DNA of 64,000 bases. Origin: Atopobium sp. oral taxon 199 str. F0494 (lineage in GTDB: Bacteria > Actinomycetota > Coriobacteriia > Coriobacteriales > Atopobiaceae). The number at the start of each line of letters is the position of its first letter. The stretch's first letter is position 1. Shown here one piece after another: positions 13,709-24,320 of the stretch. The position numbers and the translations under genes are program-made. The DNA is taken from positions 992,001 to 1,056,000 of the forward strand of contig NZ_KE150486.1 of the NCBI RefSeq assembly GCF_000411555.1, given 5' to 3'. The notes below the pieces were generated by a model. It was not told the origin of the DNA and made no database searches. It worked only from the letters and a program-made list of their open reading frames with translations.

Positions 13709-14383
13709 ATGAAAATTGCACCTTCCCTAATGAACATGGGCTTGCTCCACGTTAAAGATGATATAAAACAATTAGACCCCTACACTGACTTTTATCATGT
13801 CGATATTATCGATTGGCACTATGTTAAGAATATGTGTCTTTCTCCCCAGGTAATCAAGGAAATTAGAAAGGTGACTGACAAGCCTATAGAGGCCCACCTT
13901 TATGTGGACAACTTAGAAGAAGACTTGATAGATTATTGCCTGCAATGCGGTGCGGATATTATCACGATGCCCTCAGATATCGTTGGGCGGTCAATACATC
14001 GCTTCAGTAAGCTCATACACGTCCGCAAGGCTAAAGTGGGAGTATTTCTTAATCCTTCTCAACCTGTAAGTGAGATACAGCAGTACTCGGATGTGCTTGA
14101 TCAGCTCATTCTGTTATCTGTCGACCCAGGTTTCACTGGGCAAGATTTTGTGCAGGGAACATTTCAAAAGATTGCCAACGCAAAATCCTATAGGGAGAAA
14201 TCCTCCTCCGACTATATGATCACTGTTGATGGAGGCTGTAATCAATCGAATTTCAAACGTCTTTTCGATGCGGGAGCTGATGCTTTAGTCCTAGGACGAG
14301 GACTCTTCGACAGAAATGCTGATTTAGGAACAGCAATTTCAGAAACGTATAAGGAATTCACCCGTCTTGAAGCCGCTTCTTAA
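13709..14383 (+). CDS. Ribulose-phosphate 3-epimerase family protein, AlsE-like
   Basis: The 224-residue TIM barrel belongs to the ribulose-phosphate 3-epimerase family and resembles D-allulose-6-phosphate 3-epimerase. MKIAPSLM opens the barrel, FYHVDIID holds metal ligands, SVDPGFTGQDF is the phosphate loop and VDGGCNQ the second acid/metal segment. A strong AAAGGAGGG site precedes the ATG. A difference from the family is that the usual DGHFVPN after the first metal ligand reads DWHYVKN, which may alter specificity. It is alone on the plus strand between two minus-strand genes. It would interconvert ketose phosphates at C3 and feed the pathways of the adjacent PTS systems. Confidence 0.88.
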   Translation: MKIAPSLMNMGLLHVKDDIKQLDPYTDFYHVDIIDWHYVKNMCLSPQVIKEIRKVTDKPIEAHLYVDNLEEDLIDYCLQCGADIITMPSDIVGRSIHRFSKLIHVRKAKVGVFLNPSQPVSEIQQYSDVLDQLILLSVDPGFTGQDFVQGTFQKIANAKSYREKSSSDYMITVDGGCNQSNFKRLFDAGADALVLGRGLFDRNADLGTAISETYKEFTRLEAAS

Positions 14384-14494: not shown

Positions 14495-15271
14495 CTACAA
14501 AGGACTCTTGATGTTTACCTGCACAATCCTTCCTATGCCTGCATTTTTAAGGACCTGAATCTGATCTTCTGTCGCCCTGTCATCAGTCATAAGAATATCA
14601 ATGTCAGATGGCAGGCCATACTGGAAACTAGCATCAATGCCAAGCTTACTCGAATCTGCCAGAACTATACGCTTGTCTGAACGAGAAAGCATAAGAGCAT
14701 TGACCCTCATCTCATTTGAAACGAGGGTAGTAAGCCCGCGCTGCGCAGAAATCCCCGAACAACCCAAGATACATTTTGCCGCTTGAATTTGAGAGATGGA
14801 TGCAAGCGCAAAGTCTCCGGTAAGAGATTTCTTTGCTGCTCGAACCTCCCCGCCGGTAATAAGAACAGTCATCGATGGAGGGTAATTCATCGATAGTACG
14901 CTACCGTTATTTGTAACCACAGTAACATTCTTTGCAGTGATGAAATCGAGAATCCTGATTGCAGTAGAGCTCGTATTAATAAAGATTGTATCTCCGTCAG
15001 TAACCAATTGAGCAGCAGCTTTGGCAAGACAATACTTAGCCGTAACTTGATTTGAACTAAGACCGTTAGAGAGTGGATCAAGGAGCTGGGCCATACCATA
15101 ACTCCTTGTAATCCGTCCCTCAGCCTGAAGCACATCAAGATCTCGGCGAATAGTGAGAGCAGAGACATTAAACCTCTCAGCTATATCACTTACCTGGAGT
15201 TGCTGATTTTGCTCCAATAAATCCAGTATCTGATTTCTACGCTCTGCTACAAATGACCTATTTGATGGCAT
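14495..15271 (-). CDS. DeoR family transcriptional regulator
   Basis: The 258-residue protein has the DeoR N-terminal helix-turn-helix (residues about 5-60, including VSDIAERFNVSALTIRRDL) and a C-terminal sugar-phosphate sensor domain with the family segments VVTNNGS and LGCSGIS. The start MPSNRSF follows AGGA by five bases; the open frame extends a further 103 codons upstream without support. It diverges from the ulaCAB operon, as UlaR (also DeoR family) controls ula genes in E. coli, so it is probably the repressor of that operon, acting at the repeats in 15450-15482. Confidence 0.92.
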   Translation of the reverse strand: MPSNRSFVAERRNQILDLLEQNQQLQVSDIAERFNVSALTIRRDLDVLQAEGRITRSYGMAQLLDPLSNGLSSNQVTAKYCLAKAAAQLVTDGDTIFINTSSTAIRILDFITAKNVTVVTNNGSVLSMNYPPSMTVLITGGEVRAAKKSLTGDFALASISQIQAAKCILGCSGISAQRGLTTLVSNEMRVNALMLSRSDKRIVLADSSKLGIDASFQYGLPSDIDILMTDDRATEDQIQVLKNAGIGRIVQVNIKSPL

Positions 15272-15482: not shown

Positions 15483-15563
15483 TACAATTGACATTTGCAC
15501 TGGCGCTCTGGGGAAAGCGGCAATGCAAACAGGAATTGAGCTAAATGGGAGGGGGTGGAAACG

Positions 15564-16022
15564 ATGTTGCTTCGAGACATCTACGAAGCGGGTCACTATG
15601 CTTTTACAAAAGGTCCTCTAACATGGGAAGATTCCATTCGTGAATGCTGTAAGCCTCTTGAGATCGATGGAACCGTACCTTCTGATTACGCAGACGACAT
15701 CATTGAATGCATTCACAAGTTCGGACCCTATATCGTTATTGTTCCTCACGTTGCGATGCCGCATTCGACTGCGCGTATTGGTCAAGGGGGAAAGACTGCG
15801 ATTGGCTTTATGCACTGTGACACGCCGGTAAGCTTTGCCGAGGGGGATGAGGAAAAACAGGTTAAAACCTTCTTCACTTTGAGTGCTGTCGATCAAGACG
15901 CTCATCTGAAGAATATGCAAAACCTTGTTGCTGTTCTTATGAATGAGGAGGTTCTTGAACGTCTCAAAAACATCAAATCTCCTGAAGAACTTTTGGAGAT
16001 CGATGCTTTGCTTTCCGAGTAA
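15564..16022 (+). CDS. ulaC: PTS ascorbate IIA component
   Basis: The 152-residue protein is a UlaC-type PTS IIA; VPHVAMPHSTA places the phosphohistidine at about His67. I chose the ATG at 15564 (preceded by GGGAGGGGGTGG) over the GTG three codons earlier. It is the first gene of the operon ulaC-ulaA-ulaB-propeller-ulaG-ulaF-ulaE, which lies opposite a DeoR regulator. It phosphorylates the IIB protein encoded at 17743. Confidence 0.92.
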   Translation: MLLRDIYEAGHYAFTKGPLTWEDSIRECCKPLEIDGTVPSDYADDIIECIHKFGPYIVIVPHVAMPHSTARIGQGGKTAIGFMHCDTPVSFAEGDEEKQVKTFFTLSAVDQDAHLKNMQNLVAVLMNEEVLERLKNIKSPEELLEIDALLSE

Positions 16023-16104
16023 TAGAACCTGTCGGAGTCACTCTGTAAGGAACTTGGAAAGCACACACAGCAAAGCTTTTTATTGACCCTAGGAAAGGAA
16101 TCAC

Positions 16105-17634
16105 ATGGATATTCTTATGACTTGTTGGAGGTTCTTTGCACAGAACATCCTAACGCAGCCTGCATATTTCATTGGTTTGATCGTAGCCATCGGATATATC
16201 TTGCTGAAGAAAAAGTGGTATGACGTCATTGCTGGTTTTGTTAAAGCTGTCATTGGCTATCAGATCCTTCTTGTTGGTTCAGGCGGTCTTGTCTCTTCTT
16301 TCCGACCCGTTCTTGTTGGACTGGAGGAGCGTTTTAACCTTTCTGCAATGGTCATTGATCCTTACTTTGGCCAAAACGCTGTTCAGTCAGGTATGGCGGA
16401 TCCCAATGGACCTGCATTCATCGCCGGCCGTTCATTTTCTTCTGTCATGTTCCTGCTGCTTTTTGCATTCATTCTAAACATCGTTCTTGTCGCATTTAAG
16501 AAGCAGACCAAACTGCGCGCAATCTTTACCACCGGCCATGTCCAAGTCCAGCAGGCAGCTACTGCATTCTGGCTCATTCTGTTTTGCTTTCCACAGTTGA
16601 ATGACACTGCAGTCCTTGCTGTTATGACGCTTCTTCTCGGACTGTATTGGGCGGTTGGCTCAAACCTCTGCATCGGCCCTACCCAAGATCTTACAGACGG
16701 AGCCGGTCTGACCATTGCTCACCAGCAGATGTTTGGTGTTTATTGCGCCTCAAAAGCTTCTGAATGGCTTGCTAAACATACGAAAAAAGAGTCTAAGCGT
16801 ATCGAAGATATCGAACTTCCAGGCTTCCTCAAGATCTTCAATGAGAATCTTGTTGCCACCGCGATCTTAATGACCTTGTTCTTTGGCATCATTCTTCTCA
16901 TTCTTGGACCTGAATTCCTTTCGGGAGCAAATAAAGCGGGAACAAAGTTCTTCGATCCGTCCAAGCAGAGTTTTGTTTTCTATATCATGACAACCGCCTT
17001 CCAATTCGCCGTCTATCTCTCCATTCTTCAGCTTGGAGTCCGTACCTTCGTTACTGAACTTACCAACTCCTTCCAGGGCATTTCCAACAAACTTCTCAAG
17101 GGTTCTGTCCCAGGCGTTGACTGTGCAGTTACCTATGGTTTTGGCTCCCCTAATGCCGTTACCCTCGGTTTTCTTATGGGAGCCGCAGGACAATTTCTTG
17201 CGATTGCGCTGCTTCTTCTTTTGAAGTCTCCCGTTGTCGTGATTGCCGGCTTCGTACCACTGTTTTTTGACAATGCCACGATTGGCGTTTATGCAAACAA
17301 CAAAGGTGGTCTTCGCGCTGTTATTATCATGCCGTTTATTTCAGGCTTGCTGCAGGTCTTTGGCTCTGCGCTTATTGCCGGCTGGGTTGGTATGGCGGCA
17401 TATGGCGGCTACCTCGGCATGTGGGACTGGGCTGTTGTTTGGCCGATCATGACAGGTGTTATGAAGTTCCTGTCGTATGCGGGACTTGTAATTGTTGCAG
17501 TTGCACTTATCGCTATTCCACAGCTTCAGTACCGTGCTCACAAAGATACCTATTTCATGGAGGTTGAGGACTACCAGGCATGCAAGGAGATTCGTGCAAA
17601 GCAAGCTGCTGAAAAAGAGGCTTCTCGTAAATAG
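16105..17634 (+). CDS. ulaA: PTS L-ascorbate IIC permease
   Basis: The 509-residue membrane protein is an SgaT/UlaA-family permease with roughly a dozen hydrophobic segments, a FITGHVQ-like loop (TTGHVQVQQAA) and a final charged tail after residue 480. The ribosome site AGGAAAGG precedes the ATG. It imports and phosphorylates sugar with UlaB and UlaC. The presence of a close UlaG homolog downstream makes L-ascorbate or a close relative the best substrate guess. It is slightly longer than E. coli UlaA because of an extended loop and the charged C-terminus. Confidence 0.93.
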   Translation: MDILMTCWRFFAQNILTQPAYFIGLIVAIGYILLKKKWYDVIAGFVKAVIGYQILLVGSGGLVSSFRPVLVGLEERFNLSAMVIDPYFGQNAVQSGMADPNGPAFIAGRSFSSVMFLLLFAFILNIVLVAFKKQTKLRAIFTTGHVQVQQAATAFWLILFCFPQLNDTAVLAVMTLLLGLYWAVGSNLCIGPTQDLTDGAGLTIAHQQMFGVYCASKASEWLAKHTKKESKRIEDIELPGFLKIFNENLVATAILMTLFFGIILLILGPEFLSGANKAGTKFFDPSKQSFVFYIMTTAFQFAVYLSILQLGVRTFVTELTNSFQGISNKLLKGSVPGVDCAVTYGFGSPNAVTLGFLMGAAGQFLAIALLLLLKSPVVVIAGFVPLFFDNATIGVYANNKGGLRAVIIMPFISGLLQVFGSALIAGWVGMAAYGGYLGMWDWAVVWPIMTGVMKFLSYAGLVIVAVALIAIPQLQYRAHKDTYFMEVEDYQACKEIRAKQAAEKEASRK

Positions 17635-17742
17635 GCAGCAATTCTCTCCAAAACGATAGGGATATATCTTCCTGAGTAGGCAACACAAGGTAACAAGGCA
17701 AGCTATCTGTCACGTAAGGAAAACAGTTAAAAGGAGTTTTCA

Positions 17743-18051
17743 ATGAATGCCAAAATTCTCGTCGCATGTGCAAATGGCGCAGGCACTTCTCTCATGATGA
17801 AGATGACAGCTGAACGTGTCACATCTAAGCTTGGTATGCACGTAGATACCATCCATCACTGCGCACTCTCCGAGGGTGTCAGCTCTGCTCGTCAATATGA
17901 CATCGTCTTTGCTCCTCTGAACTTTGTAAACATGTATGAGGATGCAGAAAAGGCGGGTGTTACCGTTATCGGTCTTCGCAATGTTCTTTCAGACGCAGAA
18001 ATGGAAGAAAAGCTCGTTGAGTGCGGAGCGGCCGAAAAGTTTTCTGCCTAA
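17743..18051 (+). CDS. ulaB: PTS L-ascorbate IIB component
   Basis: The 102-residue protein is a UlaB-type IIB: NAKILVACANGAGTSLMMKM, with Cys9 as the phosphocysteine. AAAGGAG lies eight bases before the ATG. It carries phosphate from UlaC to the sugar in UlaA. The 108 bases between it and ulaA show no hairpin, so the genes are probably co-transcribed. Confidence 0.93.
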   Translation: MNAKILVACANGAGTSLMMKMTAERVTSKLGMHVDTIHHCALSEGVSSARQYDIVFAPLNFVNMYEDAEKAGVTVIGLRNVLSDAEMEEKLVECGAAEKFSA

Positions 18052-18137
18052 GTGACCACGGATATTCTATGCACGGCGAGGCTGGACGCCGGCAGGTATC
18101 TAGCCCCGCGTGTTTTAGAAGGGACAGAGTTCTGATT

Positions 18138-19193
18138 ATGAAATACACAAAGCAAGTTATTGCCCAAATGCCTAAGTGCTACGCAGTAGGTATGTTCGAC
18201 GGCAGTGACGCCTCAAGTTTTCTTGCTGCAGTTGAAAAAGAAGGACCTATCCGTCGTTTTGCTCTGGATGGCACTCCCATGGAAACCGTCGCAAAAGGAC
18301 CCGGTGGGGTAATGACGATTGCACAGGTTCCAAGGCGTAACGACCAGTTTCTTGCAACTCGAAAATTCTTCTCACCGAATTTTGGAGGAGCAGATGCCGC
18401 CATTGCTTCATACACTCATGAGGCGCATGACGCTTGGACGGAGCGTACGCTCTGTGACCTTCCTTACGTCCATCGTTTTGGCTTGCTTGAGGGGACTGAC
18501 GGAACGCTTTGGCTCCTTGCCTGTACTATCAAGGGAACTGCTGAAACCGGTGTCAAGGATGACTGGCGTGTTCCTGGTGCTGTATGGGCAGCTCCTCTTA
18601 ATGGTCAGCTCGAACAATACGACGATAAAAACCAGCTGGAACTTACGTGTATTGCAAGCTGTCAAGTCCAGAACCATGGTTTTTGGACCGCTCCCGATAA
18701 ATCATTCGCCCTTATATCAACGGCTGCCGGCGTATTTCGTTATGTACCGCCAGCTTCTCCAGAAGGTGAGTGGGATATCACATGCCTTATCATTCAACCG
18801 ACAAGCGATATTGTTGTCGCCGATCTTGATGGAGATGGTGCAAATGAAATTCTTACCTTCTCTAAATTCCATGGAGATACACTTTCCATTTGGCATGAAA
18901 CTGAGATAAAAGATCGCTACGAGCTCGTTTGGACAGACCCGTCAAAGCGTGAATTCCTTCATGCACTATGGGCCGGGGATATAGCAGGTAAGAGAGTTGC
19001 CATAATTGGCCATCGAAAAGAAGCTCGAGATCTTCTTTTGGTTCACTATACCGACGGTACGTATCACGTTGATGTTATCGACCATGATCTCGGACCTGCA
19101 AATGTATGGGCTTATAACGACGGCACTAACGACCGGATCATTGCTGCTTATCGTGAAACTGATCAGCTTGCACTGTACACGGTCAAAGCATAG
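18138..19193 (+). CDS. Beta-propeller/FG-GAP-like protein of the ula operon, function unknown
   Basis: The 351-residue protein is not a known Ula enzyme. It is rich in repeated beta-strand units with Trp and Gly turns and holds a calcium-loop-like [11 protein letters not shown] at about residue 229, typical of FG-GAP/VCBS beta-propellers. There is no signal peptide, so it should be cytoplasmic. The start [10 protein letters not shown] is chosen because AGAAGGGA lies upstream, though 13 bases away. It sits inside the operon between ulaB and ulaG, a place where the decarboxylase gene ulaD could be expected, yet it bears no resemblance to UlaD. It could be a sugar-acid lactonase-like or isomerase-like propeller; this is a guess. 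Confidence 0.75.
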
Positions 19194-19221
19194 TTTCTAT
19201 CACACCAAGAAAGGAGCGGTC

Positions 19222-20340
19222 ATGGCAAACCTTAAAGAGGTCACCCGCGAAAATTGGATCATGAATACGTTTCCCGAATGGGGAACATGGCTCAACGAGG
19301 AAATCGAGAACGCCGTTGTTGCGCCCAACCAAGTTGAAATGTGGTGGCTTGGCTGTGTCGGGATCTGGTTCAAGACCCCCGGCGGTGCAGATATTGCCGT
19401 CGATTTTTGGGCAGGTAACGGAAAGCGCACGCATGGCAATGGTCTTATGAAGGTTGGTCACCAGATGGCTAATATGGCCGGTGTCCGTAATATGCAGCCA
19501 AACCTTCGTAATGTCCCATTTGTGATCGATCCGTTTGCGATCAAACATCTTGATGCTGTTGTCGTCACCCACATTCATCAAGATCATATGTCCAAAGAAC
19601 TTGCAGCCCAGGTCATCAACAACAATATGACGACCACAAATGAAAACGGCAAGGAAATTCCAGTTCCCTTCATTGGACCCGAAAAAGCTGTTGACATTTG
19701 GGTCGATTGGGGAGTTCCCCGCGAGCAATGCATCGTCGTTAAGCCCGGTGATAAGGTCAAGATCAAAGACATTGAGATAGTTGCCTACGATTCATTTGAC
19801 CGCACTATCATCGTTACTACTACTGACACGACTGAGAATCGTCCGGATCTTTGGGGGAAATGTCCTATGGACATGGACGAAAAAGCCGTTAATTACCTCT
19901 TTGTAACGCCTGGCGGCAATATTTACCATTCCGGCGACTCTCACTATTCCATCTACTTTGCCAAGCACGGTAAGGATATTGCTAAGAAATATGGCGGCGT
20001 TGACGTATGTTTCGGAGCCTATGGCTGCAACCCCATAGGGATCCAAGACAAGATGGAAGCAACTGATATGCTCCGCATGGCTGAAGCATTACAGGCAAAA
20101 GTCGTTGTTCCGATTCATCACGACGTTTGGACCAACTTCCAAGCCGACGTTCAGGAGATCAGAGTTCTTTGGGATATGCGCAAGGATCGTCTTGACTACA
20201 AATTCCATCCGTTCTTCTGGGAAGTTGGCGGTCATTACACATACCCCCAAGATAAAGATCGTCTTGCCTATCATCACGATCGTGGTTTTCATGATTGCTT
20301 CGAACATGAACCAAATGTCCCATTCCGTAGTGTCCTTTAA
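19222..20340 (+). CDS. ulaG: L-ascorbate-6-phosphate lactonase
   Basis: The 372-residue metallo-beta-lactamase-fold protein closely follows E. coli UlaG along its length: [19 protein letters not shown], the metal motif THIHQDHM (HxHxDH), HSGDSHYS and a C-terminal [10 protein letters not shown] segment. It opens the lactone ring of L-ascorbate 6-phosphate to give 3-keto-L-gulonate 6-phosphate using a divalent metal, in the cytoplasm. AAAGGAG lies six bases before the ATG. The first metal motif has Ile where E. coli has Asp between the two histidines. It is the strongest evidence that this operon handles ascorbate. Confidence 0.95.
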
Positions 20341-20355
20341 GGAGGCTTCATACGT

Positions 20356-21057
20356 ATGATGCTGAAAGAGCTTCGCGAAGAAGTATATAAAGCCAACATG
20401 GATCTGACCAAACACGATCTTGTTGTGTTTACATGGGGCAATGCTTCTGGTCTTGATCGTGAACGCGGCCTTTTTGTCATCAAGCCATCCGGGGTCGAGT
20501 ATTCTGAACTCAGTCCGGAAAATCTGGTTATCTGTGATCTTAAAGGCAAGGTTATTGAAGGTGATCTGAATCCTTCATCCGACACGGAGACTCATGCCTG
20601 CTTATACCGTAAATGGGGCGAGAAGATCGGCGGCATTGTGCATACTCACTCTACACATGCAGTTTCTTGGGCTCAGGCAGGCCGCTCAATTCCTTGTTAC
20701 GGCACGACACACGCAGACTACTTCTATGGAGATATTCCATGCGTTCGCAGTTTAACAAAGAAGGAAGTCGACGGTGCCTATGAACTTGAAACAGGCAACG
20801 TCATTATTGAAGATTTTGCAGATCTTGACCCCGTTGCCGTTCCCGGCACACTTGTACGCAATCATGGACCTTTTGCCTGGGGTAAGAACGCCGCAGCAGC
20901 TGTCTATCATGCAGTGGTTATTGAAGAAGTTGCCAAGATGGCCACTTTGACAGAATTGAATAATCCAAAGGTCATGGAAGCTCCGAAGTACCTGCAAGAT
21001 CGTCATTATCTTCGTAAACACGGTCCAAACGCATACTACGGACAAGGTAAACATTAG
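20356..21057 (+). CDS. ulaF: L-ribulose-5-phosphate 4-epimerase
   Basis: The 233-residue class II aldolase/epimerase family protein has TWGNASGLDRE, the SGVEYSEL segment, the zinc motif HTHSTHA (about residue 96) and NHGPFAWG with the third histidine. It converts L-ribulose 5-phosphate to D-xylulose 5-phosphate, the last step of the ascorbate route. It starts 15 bases after ulaG, with GGAGG overlapping the gap; ATG codons 1 and 2 are both possible. AraD has the same fold and reaction, but the neighbours favour UlaF. Confidence 0.93.
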   Translation: MMLKELREEVYKANMDLTKHDLVVFTWGNASGLDRERGLFVIKPSGVEYSELSPENLVICDLKGKVIEGDLNPSSDTETHACLYRKWGEKIGGIVHTHSTHAVSWAQAGRSIPCYGTTHADYFYGDIPCVRSLTKKEVDGAYELETGNVIIEDFADLDPVAVPGTLVRNHGPFAWGKNAAAAVYHAVVIEEVAKMATLTELNNPKVMEAPKYLQDRHYLRKHGPNAYYGQGKH

Positions 21058-21071
21058 CCACATTGAGCATC

Positions 21072-21101
21072 GTGAGCGGTCTCCTGCCGGAGACCGCTCA
21101 C
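21072..21101 (+). other. Intercistronic hairpin between ulaF and ulaE
   Basis: GTGAGCGGTCTC and GAGACCGCTCAC form a perfect 12-pair stem around a six-base loop, with no T-run after it. It lies 14 bases past the ulaF stop and may adjust the level or stability of the ulaE message. Confidence 0.6.
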
Positions 21102-21121
21102 TTACCTATTAAGGAGTCTGT

Positions 21122-21979
21122 ATGAATACCTACCAACTTGGACTTTACGAGAAAGCAACACCTGCAGAACTTCCTTGGGAAGATCGACTTGTTGCAGCCG
21201 CAGAATGTGGCTTTGACTACGTCGAGATTTCTATCGATGAATCTGATGCTCGTCTTTCTCGTATTGATTGGACAAAAAGCGAGCGTAAAGCCCTCTGTAC
21301 TGCTATAGAGAATGCAGGAGTTCCTCTAGGCTCTATGTGCCTCTCAGGCCATCGAAAGTATCCTTTTGGATCACAGGATTCTTCTGTCCGTAGACGCTCG
21401 CTTGAAATAATGGACAAGGCCCTTACGCTTGCCTGTGATCTTGGTCTTCATACGATTCAGCTTGCTGGTTATGACGTGTATTATGAAGAAGGAACAGAAG
21501 ATACTCGTAAATGGTTCGCCGAAAACTTAAGTAAAGCTGTTGAAATGGCGTCTATAGCAGGAGTCTGTCTCGGTTTTGAAACCATGGAAACGCCTTTTAT
21601 GGACACAGTTGAAAAGGCCCTGAAATACGTTGACTTAATTGACAGCCCATATCTTGGCATCTACCCGGATGTCGGTAATCTCACCAATGCGTCGCTCATA
21701 TACGGAAAAAGTGTTGCGGATGATATCATGACCGGTAAAGGACACATTTTTGCTGCTCATATGAAAGAAACGGTAAAAGGCGCTTATCGCGAAATACCTT
21801 TCTCGACGGGAACAACGGATTACGATGGCGCTCTATCGCAACTAGTGCCCCAAGGCGTTCGCCGTTATGTAGCAGAAATGTGGTACACCGGTGATGAGGA
21901 CTGGAAAACAGATCTTGCCTTTGCTTCCAATTATATTCGCAGTAAGATCGACGCAGCATTTGAACACTATGCAAAATAA
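21122..21979 (+). CDS. ulaE: L-xylulose-5-phosphate 3-epimerase
   Basis: The 285-residue TIM-barrel protein matches UlaE/SgaU: LGLYEKATP at the start, DYVEISIDESDARLSRIDW, SMCLSGHRKYPFGS, the metal-site stretches GFETMETPFMD and YPDVGNLTNAS, and a final HMKETVKGAYREIPF. It epimerises L-xylulose 5-phosphate to L-ribulose 5-phosphate, the step before UlaF. AAGGAG lies six bases before the ATG. It is the last gene of the operon and ends before a bidirectional terminator. Confidence 0.95.
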   Translation: MNTYQLGLYEKATPAELPWEDRLVAAAECGFDYVEISIDESDARLSRIDWTKSERKALCTAIENAGVPLGSMCLSGHRKYPFGSQDSSVRRRSLEIMDKALTLACDLGLHTIQLAGYDVYYEEGTEDTRKWFAENLSKAVEMASIAGVCLGFETMETPFMDTVEKALKYVDLIDSPYLGIYPDVGNLTNASLIYGKSVADDIMTGKGHIFAAHMKETVKGAYREIPFSTGTTDYDGALSQLVPQGVRRYVAEMWYTGDEDWKTDLAFASNYIRSKIDAAFEHYAK

Positions 21980-22064
21980 GCATATCTTTTGCTGATAGGA
22001 TCATAGGTTATTTGGCTTACCGGATACTTTTGCAACATACGCTCCAAAGACAAACAACGCCTCT

Positions 22065-22101
22065 AAAAAAACCACTGGGCAGTATGGCTCAGTGGTTTTT
22101 A
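22065..22101. terminator. Bidirectional terminator between ulaE and the YjbQ-family gene
   Basis: AAAAAACCACTG and CAGTGGTTTTT (22090-22100) form a stem with A-run before and T-run after, so it can stop transcription from both convergent genes. Confidence 0.88.
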
Positions 22102-22124
22102 ATAGATGTCTGTCCTTTTAAAGA

Positions 22125-22646
22125 CTACTCGCCAATCACGCAAACTTTGACTTTACGATTACGCTCTCTATTCTGATCCCAGTCAACCAGATAAATATGA
22201 CCAAATTCCCCGGTTGCAGGCATGCCGTCAGTAACTACAAACGTTTGACTGCTGCCAAAAAGAGAAGCTCTCAGGTGCGCGTCACCATTCAAAATGGTAT
22301 TTGCCTCTCCCGGAAACTCAGGATGTTCATCATGGTAATCCACAAGAAATTGAACGTGTTTTGGTCCTGGATACCGGTATTCACGATTCTCTTCAACCTC
22401 ACGAGGAATCATCTTGTCAACAAAACGAATCAGATCTCCCTGAAGAAACTCCTGGCCCTGCCAATTTGTATCGTGAACATACTCCTCAAAAATGACTGAA
22501 CAGGTAGTATGTGTCGTTTGACACGTTACGATGCCATTTGAGATTCCTGACGCAGCAATGATGACAATTACTTGCTGTTTGATATCGATAAAATCGGGAC
22601 GACCCGCCGCGGTTGATACCGTAACCGTATCTTGATAGACAGCCAT
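22125..22646 (-). CDS. YjbQ family protein (UPF0047)
   Basis: The 173-residue protein belongs to the YjbQ/UPF0047 family (about 130-170 residues): VIIAASGISNGIVTCQTTHTTCSVIFEE in the N-terminal half and LNGDAHLRASLFGSSQ with the conserved histidine further on. The start MAVYQDT follows GGAGAAGAG. Family members have been linked to weak thiamine-phosphate synthase activity; a real role is unclear. It follows the triosephosphate-isomerase-like gene by 31 bases and is probably co-transcribed with it under the operator at 23442, which hints at a role in handling a sugar phosphate. Confidence 0.88.
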   Translation of the reverse strand: MAVYQDTVTVSTAAGRPDFIDIKQQVIVIIAASGISNGIVTCQTTHTTCSVIFEEYVHDTNWQGQEFLQGDLIRFVDKMIPREVEENREYRYPGPKHVQFLVDYHDEHPEFPGEANTILNGDAHLRASLFGSSQTFVVTDGMPATGEFGHIYLVDWDQNRERNRKVKVCVIGE

Positions 22647-22677
22647 ACGTCTCTTCTCCAATCTTTTCTTGCTGTAT

Positions 22678-23376
22678 TTACTGTGCAAAATCAGTACGCG
22701 CTCGATCAAGCGCTTCAAACATTTCGTCAAGCGTCGCAAATGGGTCATCCGCCGCGACAATGCCCGAGGTGCCTCCGGTCGCATCGGCACCATATTTGAT
22801 AGCGTCATAGACGTTTTCGCCGGAGCTGATGCCTGCCGCTTGAAGCACTTTAGTAGCGGGAGAAATAGCCTTGACAGCCTCCGTTGAAGCGCGCATATAA
22901 TCCTCGCTGGCAATCTGACCGGTTCCAATAAGACTTGTAAGTTCGCAGGTCATAATATCCGGATGAAGCTCCGCAATAGCCTTCGCCTCTTCAACGGAAT
23001 CAGCGCACACACAGGTCAGAATTCCAACTTCATCAGCGCGGGCTATGGTTGCAGCCAGCTCATGAACGGTCATGGGATTCTCGGCATGATTCAAAAATGT
23101 AGCCTTTACTCCTGCCGCCGCAAGCGCCTCAGGCAAGATATGTCCCATGCCACGACCAGGCTTGAGGCTTTCCATATTTTGAGCACACGGAATAAGGTGC
23201 TTGCAATGCTCCGCGACCCAAGCTAAATCAATCAGCTGCGCCGTGAACAGACAATCAAAATCGTATTTCTCGCAAAGTTCATCTGCCTTAACGGCAAGCT
23301 TACGAAGATCCTCTCCGTACAAATACGACTTTGGATTAACTACAAAAAATGGGCTTCTCAACTTGTGCTTTTCCAT
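22678..23376 (-). CDS. Triosephosphate isomerase family protein
   Basis: The 232-residue TIM-barrel keeps the catalytic set of triosephosphate isomerase: Asn14 and Lys16 in VVNPKSY, His97 in LNHAEN and Glu145 in CELTSLIGTG. Its short length and pattern are nearer archaeal-type TPI and the TPI-like isomerases found in sugar operons than the usual bacterial TpiA (about 250 residues with GHSERR). The start MEKHKLRSP follows GAGGGG by eight bases. It lies under an operator shared with the aldolase gene, so it is probably an inducible isomerase for dihydroxyacetone phosphate or a related ketose phosphate such as a tetrulose phosphate. Confidence 0.88.
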   Translation of the reverse strand: MEKHKLRSPFFVVNPKSYLYGEDLRKLAVKADELCEKYDFDCLFTAQLIDLAWVAEHCKHLIPCAQNMESLKPGRGMGHILPEALAAAGVKATFLNHAENPMTVHELAATIARADEVGILTCVCADSVEEAKAIAELHPDIMTCELTSLIGTGQIASEDYMRASTEAVKAISPATKVLQAAGISSGENVYDAIKYGADATGGTSGIVAADDPFATLDEMFEALDRARTDFAQ

Positions 23377-23441
23377 ACAGATCCCCTCTATCCAAAGCAT
23401 GCATACAAAACGACAAGTTCAATATAAGCAGTATATATCAA

Positions 23442-23465
23442 CTTGTACACAATTTTATATACAAG
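23442..23465. promoter_or_regulatory. GntR-type operator before the isomerase / YjbQ genes
   Basis: CTTGTA, 12 bases, TACAAG, a perfect six-base inverted repeat just downstream of the GntR gene and 66 bases before the isomerase start. On the minus strand the spacer begins TATAAAAT, so the site overlaps a possible -10. See the matching site at 5664. Confidence 0.65.
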
Positions 23466-23471
23466 ATGTCT

Positions 23472-24320
23472 TTATAGATGAATTTTATCGGTGAGCGCGC
23501 GCGTTCGGGGTTGAATTGCATCCCCCACTACTGCCTGCCCTGATGTAAGCCACGTAAGACTCCACTCAAAGGGGGTCTTATCGGCAAATCTGATTGTTTG
23601 CTCAAGAACCAGGATTGGTGAGTTCTCATCGCACTGTAAGTAGCGGCCGTGCTCCGCTCCCGCCGCGCGCGCCGTATAGCGAATCTTTGAGTACGAAATC
23701 TTCTTTCCGCTGCATCGTTCCGCGGCTGAAAAGGCTGGTTCCACTCGAAAATCTGCTTTTTCATAGCCGGGACATTCCGACAAATTCGTCCAACTTTCCT
23801 GACACAAAATAGGCTCGTCATCGACATATCTGACCCTGCGCAAAAAACAAATGAGGTCTGAAGGCGATGCCTGCAGCTCATTTTTTACATTTTCCGGAGC
23901 GGGCAGAACTTTCTTTTCAAGGACTTTTGTTTCAAAGTCCAACCCCTGATTCCTGAGAGATTCGGCAAACGAAAGAGGTCGAACGCCCGCTGGATGAGAC
24001 AACCCCTCTTCGGCGACATAGGTACCTTTCCCGTGTACACGAAACAAAAGACCCTCGTTGACCAGCGTTTCAATTGCATGCCGCACAGTTCCCCGACTTA
24101 TACCGAAGCGATCCATAAGTTCATGTTCCGAGAGGATCTTTTCGCCTGAAACTAATTCTCGCGAGTAGATCATCTCTCTGATCTGATCAGCCAGTTGCGA
24201 ATGTAGCGACGTCGTACCACTAGTAATTAAAGCTTTTTTCGGCTCATCTTGATTAGTAAGCTTTTCTGGCGTTGGAAAGAGGGGGTAGGCTTTATCGTCA
24301 TCTGCAACCTTTGTGCACAC
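23472..24320 (-). CDS. GntR family (HutC/UTRA) transcriptional regulator
   Basis: The 282-residue protein has a 40-residue N-terminal extension, then a GntR winged HTH (about 45-113; recognition segment GISRGTVRHAIETL and wing HGKGTY) and a UTRA domain (about 130-275). It starts with GTG, five bases after AGAAGG. It lies directly upstream of the TPI/YjbQ genes with the CTTGTA-N12-TACAAG operator between them and is the best candidate to bind that site and the twin at 5664. Upstream of the gene, CAAG words at 24368 and 24379 resemble half-sites and suggest self-regulation. The N-terminal extension is unusual. Confidence 0.92.
   Translation of the reverse strand: MCTKVADDDKAYPLFPTPEKLTNQDEPKKALITSGTTSLHSQLADQIREMIYSRELVSGEKILSEHELMDRFGISRGTVRHAIETLVNEGLLFRVHGKGTYVAEEGLSHPAGVRPLSFAESLRNQGLDFETKVLEKKVLPAPENVKNELQASPSDLICFLRRVRYVDDEPILCQESWTNLSECPGYEKADFRVEPAFSAAERCSGKKISYSKIRYTARAAGAEHGRYLQCDENSPILVLEQTIRFADKTPFEWSLTWLTSGQAVVGDAIQPRTRALTDKIHL

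Follow-up and report, generated by a model that had tools for sequence, protein, structure and literature searches.

In the 64,000-nucleotide window of Atopobium sp. oral taxon 199 str. F0494 analysed here, seven genes ordered ulaC-ulaA-ulaB-propeller-ulaG-ulaF-ulaE (15564-21979; all open, with ATG starts, on the + strand) make up an ascorbate operon that has no ulaD and that carries the gene for a 351-residue protein (P0001) predicted to fold as a beta-propeller. The six ula products named in the initial annotation (UlaC, UlaA, UlaB, UlaG, UlaF and UlaE) all drew NCBIfam matches, the ascorbate-operon markers UlaG, UlaE, UlaF and UlaA lying above their curated cut-offs and UlaB and UlaC below theirs. 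The transport proteins, the lactonase and both epimerases belong to the same families as those of the E. coli ula regulon (UlaABCDEFG); that regulon possesses UlaD, whereas the operon described here has the propeller gene after ulaB instead.

UlaD is missing from the source genome

The source genome (1.67 Mb, 2 contigs, 99.6% complete) yielded a single PF00215 match, PyrF (237 bits, cut-off 193), and zero matches to a UlaD profile built from three sequences, the UlaD proteins of E. coli and of genomes G240 and G215. UlaD is therefore missing genome-wide and not merely from the window, which extends to the whole genome the earlier remark that the window holds no 3-keto-L-gulonate-6-phosphate decarboxylase, and which leaves no UlaD elsewhere to carry out the decarboxylation, as had been considered. 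Since UlaG, UlaE and UlaF are present while UlaD is absent, the ascorbate pathway is one step short.

The propeller travels with the ula pathway and takes the place of UlaD in relatives

We then looked at three sets of relatives, which overlap, so that counts are not additive (some records, for example L079 and L107, occur among both the class genomes and the named loci). Among 296 genomes of the class, 20 possess the propeller, 23 possess UlaG and 19 possess both (Fisher p 4e-25). In a family sample of 200 genomes around G301, itself reached from the Clostridium sp. locus L145, UlaG was found in 18, the propeller in 23 and both in 18 (Fisher p 2e-21); both p values were computed as if related genomes were independent of one another. 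G301 and G303 entered the family sample via their propeller loci, and without them 16 of 16 UlaG genomes carry the propeller. The propeller of G168, fragmented at contig ends, was counted as present. The sole class genome with a propeller and no UlaG, G096, has the gene at a contig end, in an 11 kb stretch without ula genes. The four class genomes with UlaG and no propeller are G240 and G215, which have classical operons with UlaD, and G173 and G291, which have an operon of another type described below.

The gene order ulaCAB-propeller-ulaG, with no UlaD in the fetched stretch, is shared by the window and 17 class relatives. G240 and G215, from the same family as the window, have ulaG-C-A-B-D-E-F, with UlaD (428 and 424 bits, respectively, against the UlaD profile) and without the propeller. 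This contrast, in which one gene replaces the other, is significant among the class loci (p 0.005), and the propeller occupies the slot after ulaB that ulaD fills in the relatives' classical operons.

A scan of named relatives confirmed 176 propeller homologues, the best 80 of which were analysed; Atopobiaceae, Lachnospiraceae, Selenomonas and other Veillonellaceae-type bacteria, Erysipelotrichaceae, Oscillospiraceae and one Sphaerochaetaceae genome are represented. Within these 80 loci ulaE is present in 66, ulaG in 65, ulaF in 55 and ulaA in 47, and at least one of ulaG, ulaE and ulaF in 78; in 73 a co-directional ula gene lies no more than 300 bases away. Arrangements include ulaE-propeller-ulaF-ulaG (L166) and ulaE-ulaF-propeller-ulaG-kinase (L161). 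A phosphotransferase system (PTS) gene was found in 49 loci and an FGGY-family kinase in 17 (L126, L161, L171, L180 and 13 more), 16 of which have no PTS gene. The two FGGY kinases scanned are xylulokinase-like, below the cut-off, and the presence of such a kinase in the PTS slot suggests an ascorbate or keto-gulonate kinase route. That PTS and kinase are exchangeable while the propeller, UlaG, UlaE and UlaF recur points to a role for the propeller at a core catalytic step. Over 61 loci, distances between propellers correlate with those between UlaG proteins (Mantel r 0.56, p 0.001), as would be seen if the two were inherited together, though common descent of the hosts predicts such a pattern as well. 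Co-travel of the propeller with ulaG, raised in the initial annotation, is thus strongly borne out in the class sample, the family sample and the 80 named loci alike.

In line with the gene orders, no UlaD was found in any of the 80 named loci, even at phmmer E 10, with a query that does recover the two true UlaDs among the class loci. Genome-wide, no UlaD-profile match of any kind was obtained for 14 of the 20 class genomes with a propeller, 19 of 22 hand-picked from the 80 named loci and 13 of 18 from the family sample, the last two sets having G301 and G303 in common. The initial annotation had named, as counting against the idea, a ulaD elsewhere in the genome together with propeller-free relatives that grow on ascorbate; this combination was not encountered in the genomes searched, the growth phenotype of none of which is known.

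UlaG was also seen in a different type of operon. In L101-L104 (from G291, G173, G234 and G170) its neighbours are a UlaABC-like PTS, a 6-phosphogluconate dehydrogenase and an RpiR-type regulator, and both UlaD and the propeller are absent beside it. The UlaG of L102, the only one of the four scanned, scores 531 bits as L-ascorbate-6-phosphate lactonase, and the dehydrogenase is above its cut-off in L102 and L103 and was assigned by reading in L101 and L104; the regulator was scanned in L102. These loci perhaps encode a lactone-phosphate route with oxidative decarboxylation, in which the name UlaG may mislead. As they have neither UlaD nor propeller, not every UlaG needs a UlaD step, and by contrast with them the propeller is linked to operons of the UlaE/UlaF type.

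A genome of the same species as the source, G054, has no match to either the propeller or UlaG (E 1e-30); the operon is therefore accessory within the species.

P0001 is predicted to be a seven-bladed propeller related in fold to AUDH

UlaD (KGPDC) is a textbook case of the orotidine monophosphate (OMP) decarboxylase suprafamily and has a TIM-barrel fold. The AlphaFold model of P0001, made with 63 sequences (predicted local distance difference test 95.1, predicted template modelling score 0.92), contains 28 strands and lacks helices as long as four residues, and hence is no UlaD-type TIM barrel; counted from these strands, the predicted protein is a propeller of seven four-stranded blades. Neither PF00215 nor the NCBIfam UlaD models matched P0001 at E 1.

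In a structural second look, using VIA-align over 981 chains, the top match was aldos-2-ulose dehydratase/isomerase (AUDH, entries 4a7k, 4a7y and 4a7z; Z 35.1-35.2, root-mean-square deviation 2.7 over 336 residues, AUDH 20-434), and the next unrelated match was LGI1 (Z 28.8). Foldseek, ordered by E-value, placed LGI1 first, with AUDH not among the matches listed (best 50), and a viral structure library returned generic propellers. AUDH is a dehydratase/isomerase of unphosphorylated keto-sugars. Like P0001 as modelled, it has a seven-bladed propeller, at its N-terminus, but it is a protein of 900 residues with further domains, whereas the 351 residues of P0001 are all propeller and gave no match to AUDH_Cupin (PF18637) at E 1. 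A scan of 198 genomes of the phylum for PF18637 had no hit in any of them, the controls among them, and carries no weight. The title of an AUDH PDB entry reads 'Active site metal depleted', and we accordingly take AUDH to work via a metal in its propeller domain. Two of the three pieces of a weak profile match between AUDH and A4, a wider set of 13 propeller sequences, align H112-R113 with HR and F244-H245-G246 with FHG, in the same order, and the third falls on the neighbouring DxDGDG loop. The alignment of these motifs is suggestive of relatedness, a hint and not proof.

By sequence, FG-GAP_3 (PF13517) reached 16.6 bits in one matching stretch, below the gathering cut-off of 26.9, and 18 of 19 class propellers matched it at E 0.1 or better (best 7e-07), so that the earlier label of an FG-GAP-like protein within the operon is fair, if weak by sequence. 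The DxDGDG loop is common to P0001 and the VCBS/FG-GAP superfamily, and a passage of PMC8023676 lists AUDH among VCBS propellers. Neither Pfam nor NCBIfam names the propeller family in these scans. A phmmer search of P0001 against the PDB found the designed protein 7ong (E 2.5e-05, residues 14-56, with no single stretch passing by itself), which we took as chance, and nothing else under E 0.1. Profiles A1, A2 and A5, and two divergent members used as single queries, found no usable relative, and searches of PHROGs and of plasmids returned none.

Invariant polar and charged residues are enriched on one face of the predicted propeller

Conservation was assessed in an alignment of 63 sequences (A2: P0001, 3 class relatives and 59 chosen from the 80 named loci, those omitted including split or partial genes) and in A4. 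Across the 63 sequences 45 columns are invariant, among them E33, K34, H112, R113, K132, D142, H180, D224, H245, H275, R293, R339 and E340. H112, H180, H245 and H275 are the only P0001 histidines conserved in all 63, and they are conserved in all 13 sequences of A4 as well. The DxDGDGxxE loop is probably a structural calcium site of the VCBS/FG-GAP type.

By convention the D-A and B-C loops form one face of a propeller. In the model this face holds, on a strict definition, 11 of 21 invariant D/E/H/K/R/N/Q residues against 24 of 90 variable ones (p 0.035), and, with strand ends added, 15 of 21 against 31 of 90 (p 0.003). Still invariant in A4 are the HR, DW, NHG and FHG motifs together with D224, H275 and R293, a set that, judged from the alignments, may represent the catalytic core. 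R339-E340 are altered solely in L236-L238 of A4, from genomes without UlaG at E 1e-60 (L238 with a UlaG-like protein of 35% identity), and these two residues may, on a thin case, mark an ascorbate branch. We also tried K132, R339 and E340 as marks of UlaG-linked members, an idea that is not cleanly borne out: K34 and K132 change in L239 and L240 too, although these lie beside UlaG, and K34, K132, R339 and E340 are all retained in L235, whose genome has no UlaG.

The divergent relatives L235-L238, all from genomes without UlaG at E 1e-60, keep the core motifs. Their neighbours are 2-hydroxyacid dehydrogenases (L235 and L237), xylose-isomerase-like barrels (L237), ThuA (L236) and the UlaG-like lactonase already mentioned (L238), and their function may differ.

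A candidate substitute for UlaD

As nothing has changed in UlaG, UlaE and UlaF, the likeliest role of the propeller is the UlaD step itself, the best-supported statement that we can make; its chemistry is a proposal. The initial annotation's suggestion of a variant route to which the propeller belongs is thereby supported and sharpened, and the other suggestion, that it acts on a different lactone, gained no positive support. In the proposed pathway, UlaABC would import ascorbate as its 6-phosphate, UlaG would open the lactone to give 3-keto-L-gulonate-6-phosphate, the propeller would decarboxylate this to L-xylulose-5-phosphate, and UlaE and UlaF would convert the product to D-xylulose-5-phosphate. 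UlaD itself promotes a metal-assisted loss of CO2 to an enediolate, and by analogy UlaD-like chemistry could be within reach of a propeller that has four histidines and acidic residues on one face and is akin in fold to a keto-sugar-enolising enzyme. In this proposal the four invariant histidines would bind a divalent metal on one propeller face, where it would serve as the Lewis acid for the ketone at C3; CO2 would depart, the metal would hold the enediolate, and an invariant acid would protonate it. We consider it probable that the propeller is a non-orthologous replacement of UlaD working as a metal-assisted decarboxylase, with the reaction, the metal and the residue roles all putative. With somewhat less assurance, we lean towards the broader view that this widespread unnamed family is a metal-dependent sugar-phosphate decarboxylase that replaces UlaD, has the AUDH fold, is convergent with the OMP decarboxylase suprafamily and has divergent branches in other sugar-acid routes.

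Several observations weigh against a replacement of this kind. The link to AUDH is one of fold, at 14% identity, and the wide profile A4 reaches AUDH at E 1.8 only, while A1, A2 and A5 give no match to it at E 10. In the fetched stretches of the class relatives ulaE is present in 14 of 17 and missing from 3, and ulaF is present in 12 and missing from 5; in addition, 5 of the 23 family-sample propeller genomes have no UlaG at E 1e-60. K34 and K132 are altered both in L236-L238 and in the UlaG-adjacent L239 and L240. Some UlaD-profile match was found in 6 of 20 class, 3 of 22 named and 5 of 18 family-sample propeller genomes. Most of these are weak: the best of each genome lie at 60-103 bits, where the two true UlaDs score 424-428. 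Stronger ones occur in G180 (175 bits), G234 (164) and G382 (225), and in these three a UlaD-like enzyme could act. The UlaD-like genes of G234 (L246) and G180 (L247) adjoin a phosphotriesterase-like lactonase (scanned in G234, assigned by reading in G180) and PTS genes, with UlaG not in the stretch, and probably belong to a separate sugar-lactone-phosphate pathway; that of G382 has a similar neighbour, by reading.

A further point on the same side is that 3-keto acids can lose CO2 without an enzyme. The lability of beta-keto acids is established chemistry, so that decarboxylation might be spontaneous, or due to a promiscuous housekeeping enzyme, with the propeller an accessory such as a second lactonase, mutarotase or regulator. 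Some propellers are indeed lactonases, RPA3624 being among the Foldseek matches listed, but the lactone is already opened by UlaG, the propeller substitutes for UlaD and does not accompany it, and 13 named charged or histidine residues invariant in 63 of 63 propellers look enzyme-like; we regard an accessory role as unlikely. It is very improbable that the step is performed by the AlsE-like epimerase gene at 13709-14383, 1.2 kb upstream and beyond the DeoR gene, although its family is structurally related to UlaD. By its scores the gene is a member of the ribulose-phosphate 3-epimerase family, with 221 bits under the D-allulose-6-phosphate 3-epimerase model (cut-off 271), in agreement with the initial annotation that it does not resemble UlaD; the PF00215 and UlaD models are silent on it, and no more than 3 of the 80 named loci have a relative of it close to the propeller, as do none of the intact loci of the 17 class relatives.

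Two other readings keep the propeller as an enzyme of a different reaction. An enzyme of Ralstonia eutropha, ascribed to Stack et al. 2020, is reportedly WD40-like and carries out a benzilic acid rearrangement of 2,3-diketo-L-gulonate in ascorbate catabolism. It is described as propeller-like and as acting on a keto-gulonate derived from ascorbate, a likeness to P0001 drawn from its description, in a pathway that differs in being unphosphorylated and in including cytochrome b561, a gluconolactonase and PdxA. A passage of PMC7873064 cites Stack et al. for a novel R. eutropha ascorbate pathway. That an enzyme of the same broad fold class has a similar substrate lends some weight to the idea that the propeller rearranges 3-keto-L-gulonate-6-phosphate by carboxylate or ketol migration, with decarboxylation spontaneous or left to another enzyme. 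UlaE and UlaF recur, however, and need L-xylulose-5-phosphate, and none of the ten window proteins scanned is a PdxA, amidohydrolase, gluconolactonase (SMP-30) or cytochrome b561; such a rearrangement is decidedly unlikely. A PdxA search in plasmids, with three neighbourhoods viewed, showed other PdxA contexts and no lead to the R. eutropha enzyme. Slightly more doubtful still is an operon for a different lactone phosphate, for example of the erythorbate type, with the propeller as an AUDH-like dehydratase/isomerase: the fold match to AUDH would suit it, as would the occurrence of UlaG relatives in other routes such as that with 6-phosphogluconate dehydrogenase, but UlaG, UlaA, UlaE and UlaF are over their model cut-offs and the propeller sits in the ulaD slot after ulaB.

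Replacement of UlaD by the propeller thus remains the reading that we prefer. If it is true, an unrelated propeller doing the UlaD step would be a clean non-orthologous replacement with convergent enediolate chemistry, and a family unnamed by Pfam and NCBIfam would gain a function. The propeller, probably an unrecognised substitute for UlaD, is widespread among anaerobes of the gut, the rumen and the mouth. Predictions based on UlaD would count as ascorbate non-users those Atopobiaceae, Lachnospiraceae, Selenomonas and Erysipelotrichaceae that carry this operon; in most such genomes the steps before and after UlaD are present, and pathway predictions would be corrected. We found no report of such a replacement in the open-licence literature, and one may be in print elsewhere; a duplicated, uncharacterised gene is mentioned there as following ulaF in Catonella morbi. 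We describe the locus as a new form of the ula operon, probably with a new enzyme family; we do not call the finding categorically new, mainly because of the reported R. eutropha enzyme.

Coordinates and neighbouring features

Table 1. Features of the propeller-containing ascorbate operon and its surroundings, in window coordinates.
Feature	Position	Strand	Evidence and remarks
DeoR-family regulator	14495..15271	-	DeoRC 129 bits, HTH_DeoR 58 bits; divergent from the operon
ulaC, PTS EIIA	15564..16022	+	PTS_EIIA_2 87 bits; UlaC model 57 bits, under cut-off 187
ulaA, PTS EIIC for ascorbate	16105..17634	+	EIIC-GAT 360 bits; PTS ascorbate IIC 392, cut-off 380
ulaB, PTS EIIB	17743..18051	+	PTS_IIB 46.7 bits; UlaB model 40.6, under cut-off 138
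Seven-bladed beta-propeller P0001, 351 residues	18138..19193	+	Predicted fold; travels with ulaG, ulaE and ulaF
His112 codon (motif HR)	18471..18473	+	Invariant in 63/63 and in 13/13 of A4
His180 codon (motif NHG)	18675..18677	+	Invariant in 63/63 and in 13/13 of A4
DxDGDGxxE loop, residues 229-237	18822..18848	+	D229, D233 and E237 invariant in 63; covered by both weak FG-GAP matches
His245 codon (motif FHG)	18870..18872	+	Invariant in 63/63 and in 13/13 of A4
His275 codon	18960..18962	+	Invariant in 63/63 and in 13/13 of A4
ulaG, L-ascorbate-6-phosphate lactonase, 372 residues	19222..20340	+	NCBIfam equivalog 611 bits, cut-off 306
ulaF, L-ribulose-5-phosphate 4-epimerase	20356..21057	+	NCBIfam 414 bits, cut-off 369
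ulaE, 3-epimerase of the UlaE family	21122..21979	+	TIGR00542 311 bits, cut-off 272
Terminator-like hairpin with T run, 3' of the operon	22067..22100	+	14-pair stem; fold of 21975-22110, z -2.6

A relative of the DeoR-family regulator adjoins the operon in 17 of 17 intact class relatives, and this protein is likely the operon's repressor. Immediately 5' of ulaC there is an imperfect inverted repeat (15485-15538; 23-nucleotide arms, 74% complementary), a possible operator for the regulator. Finally, 3' of the operon, the minus strand of 22125-24320 carries an odd grouping of a YjbQ-like gene and a GntR-type regulator, both assigned by reading, with a relative of triose-phosphate isomerase (PRK04302 170 bits, cut-off 132).

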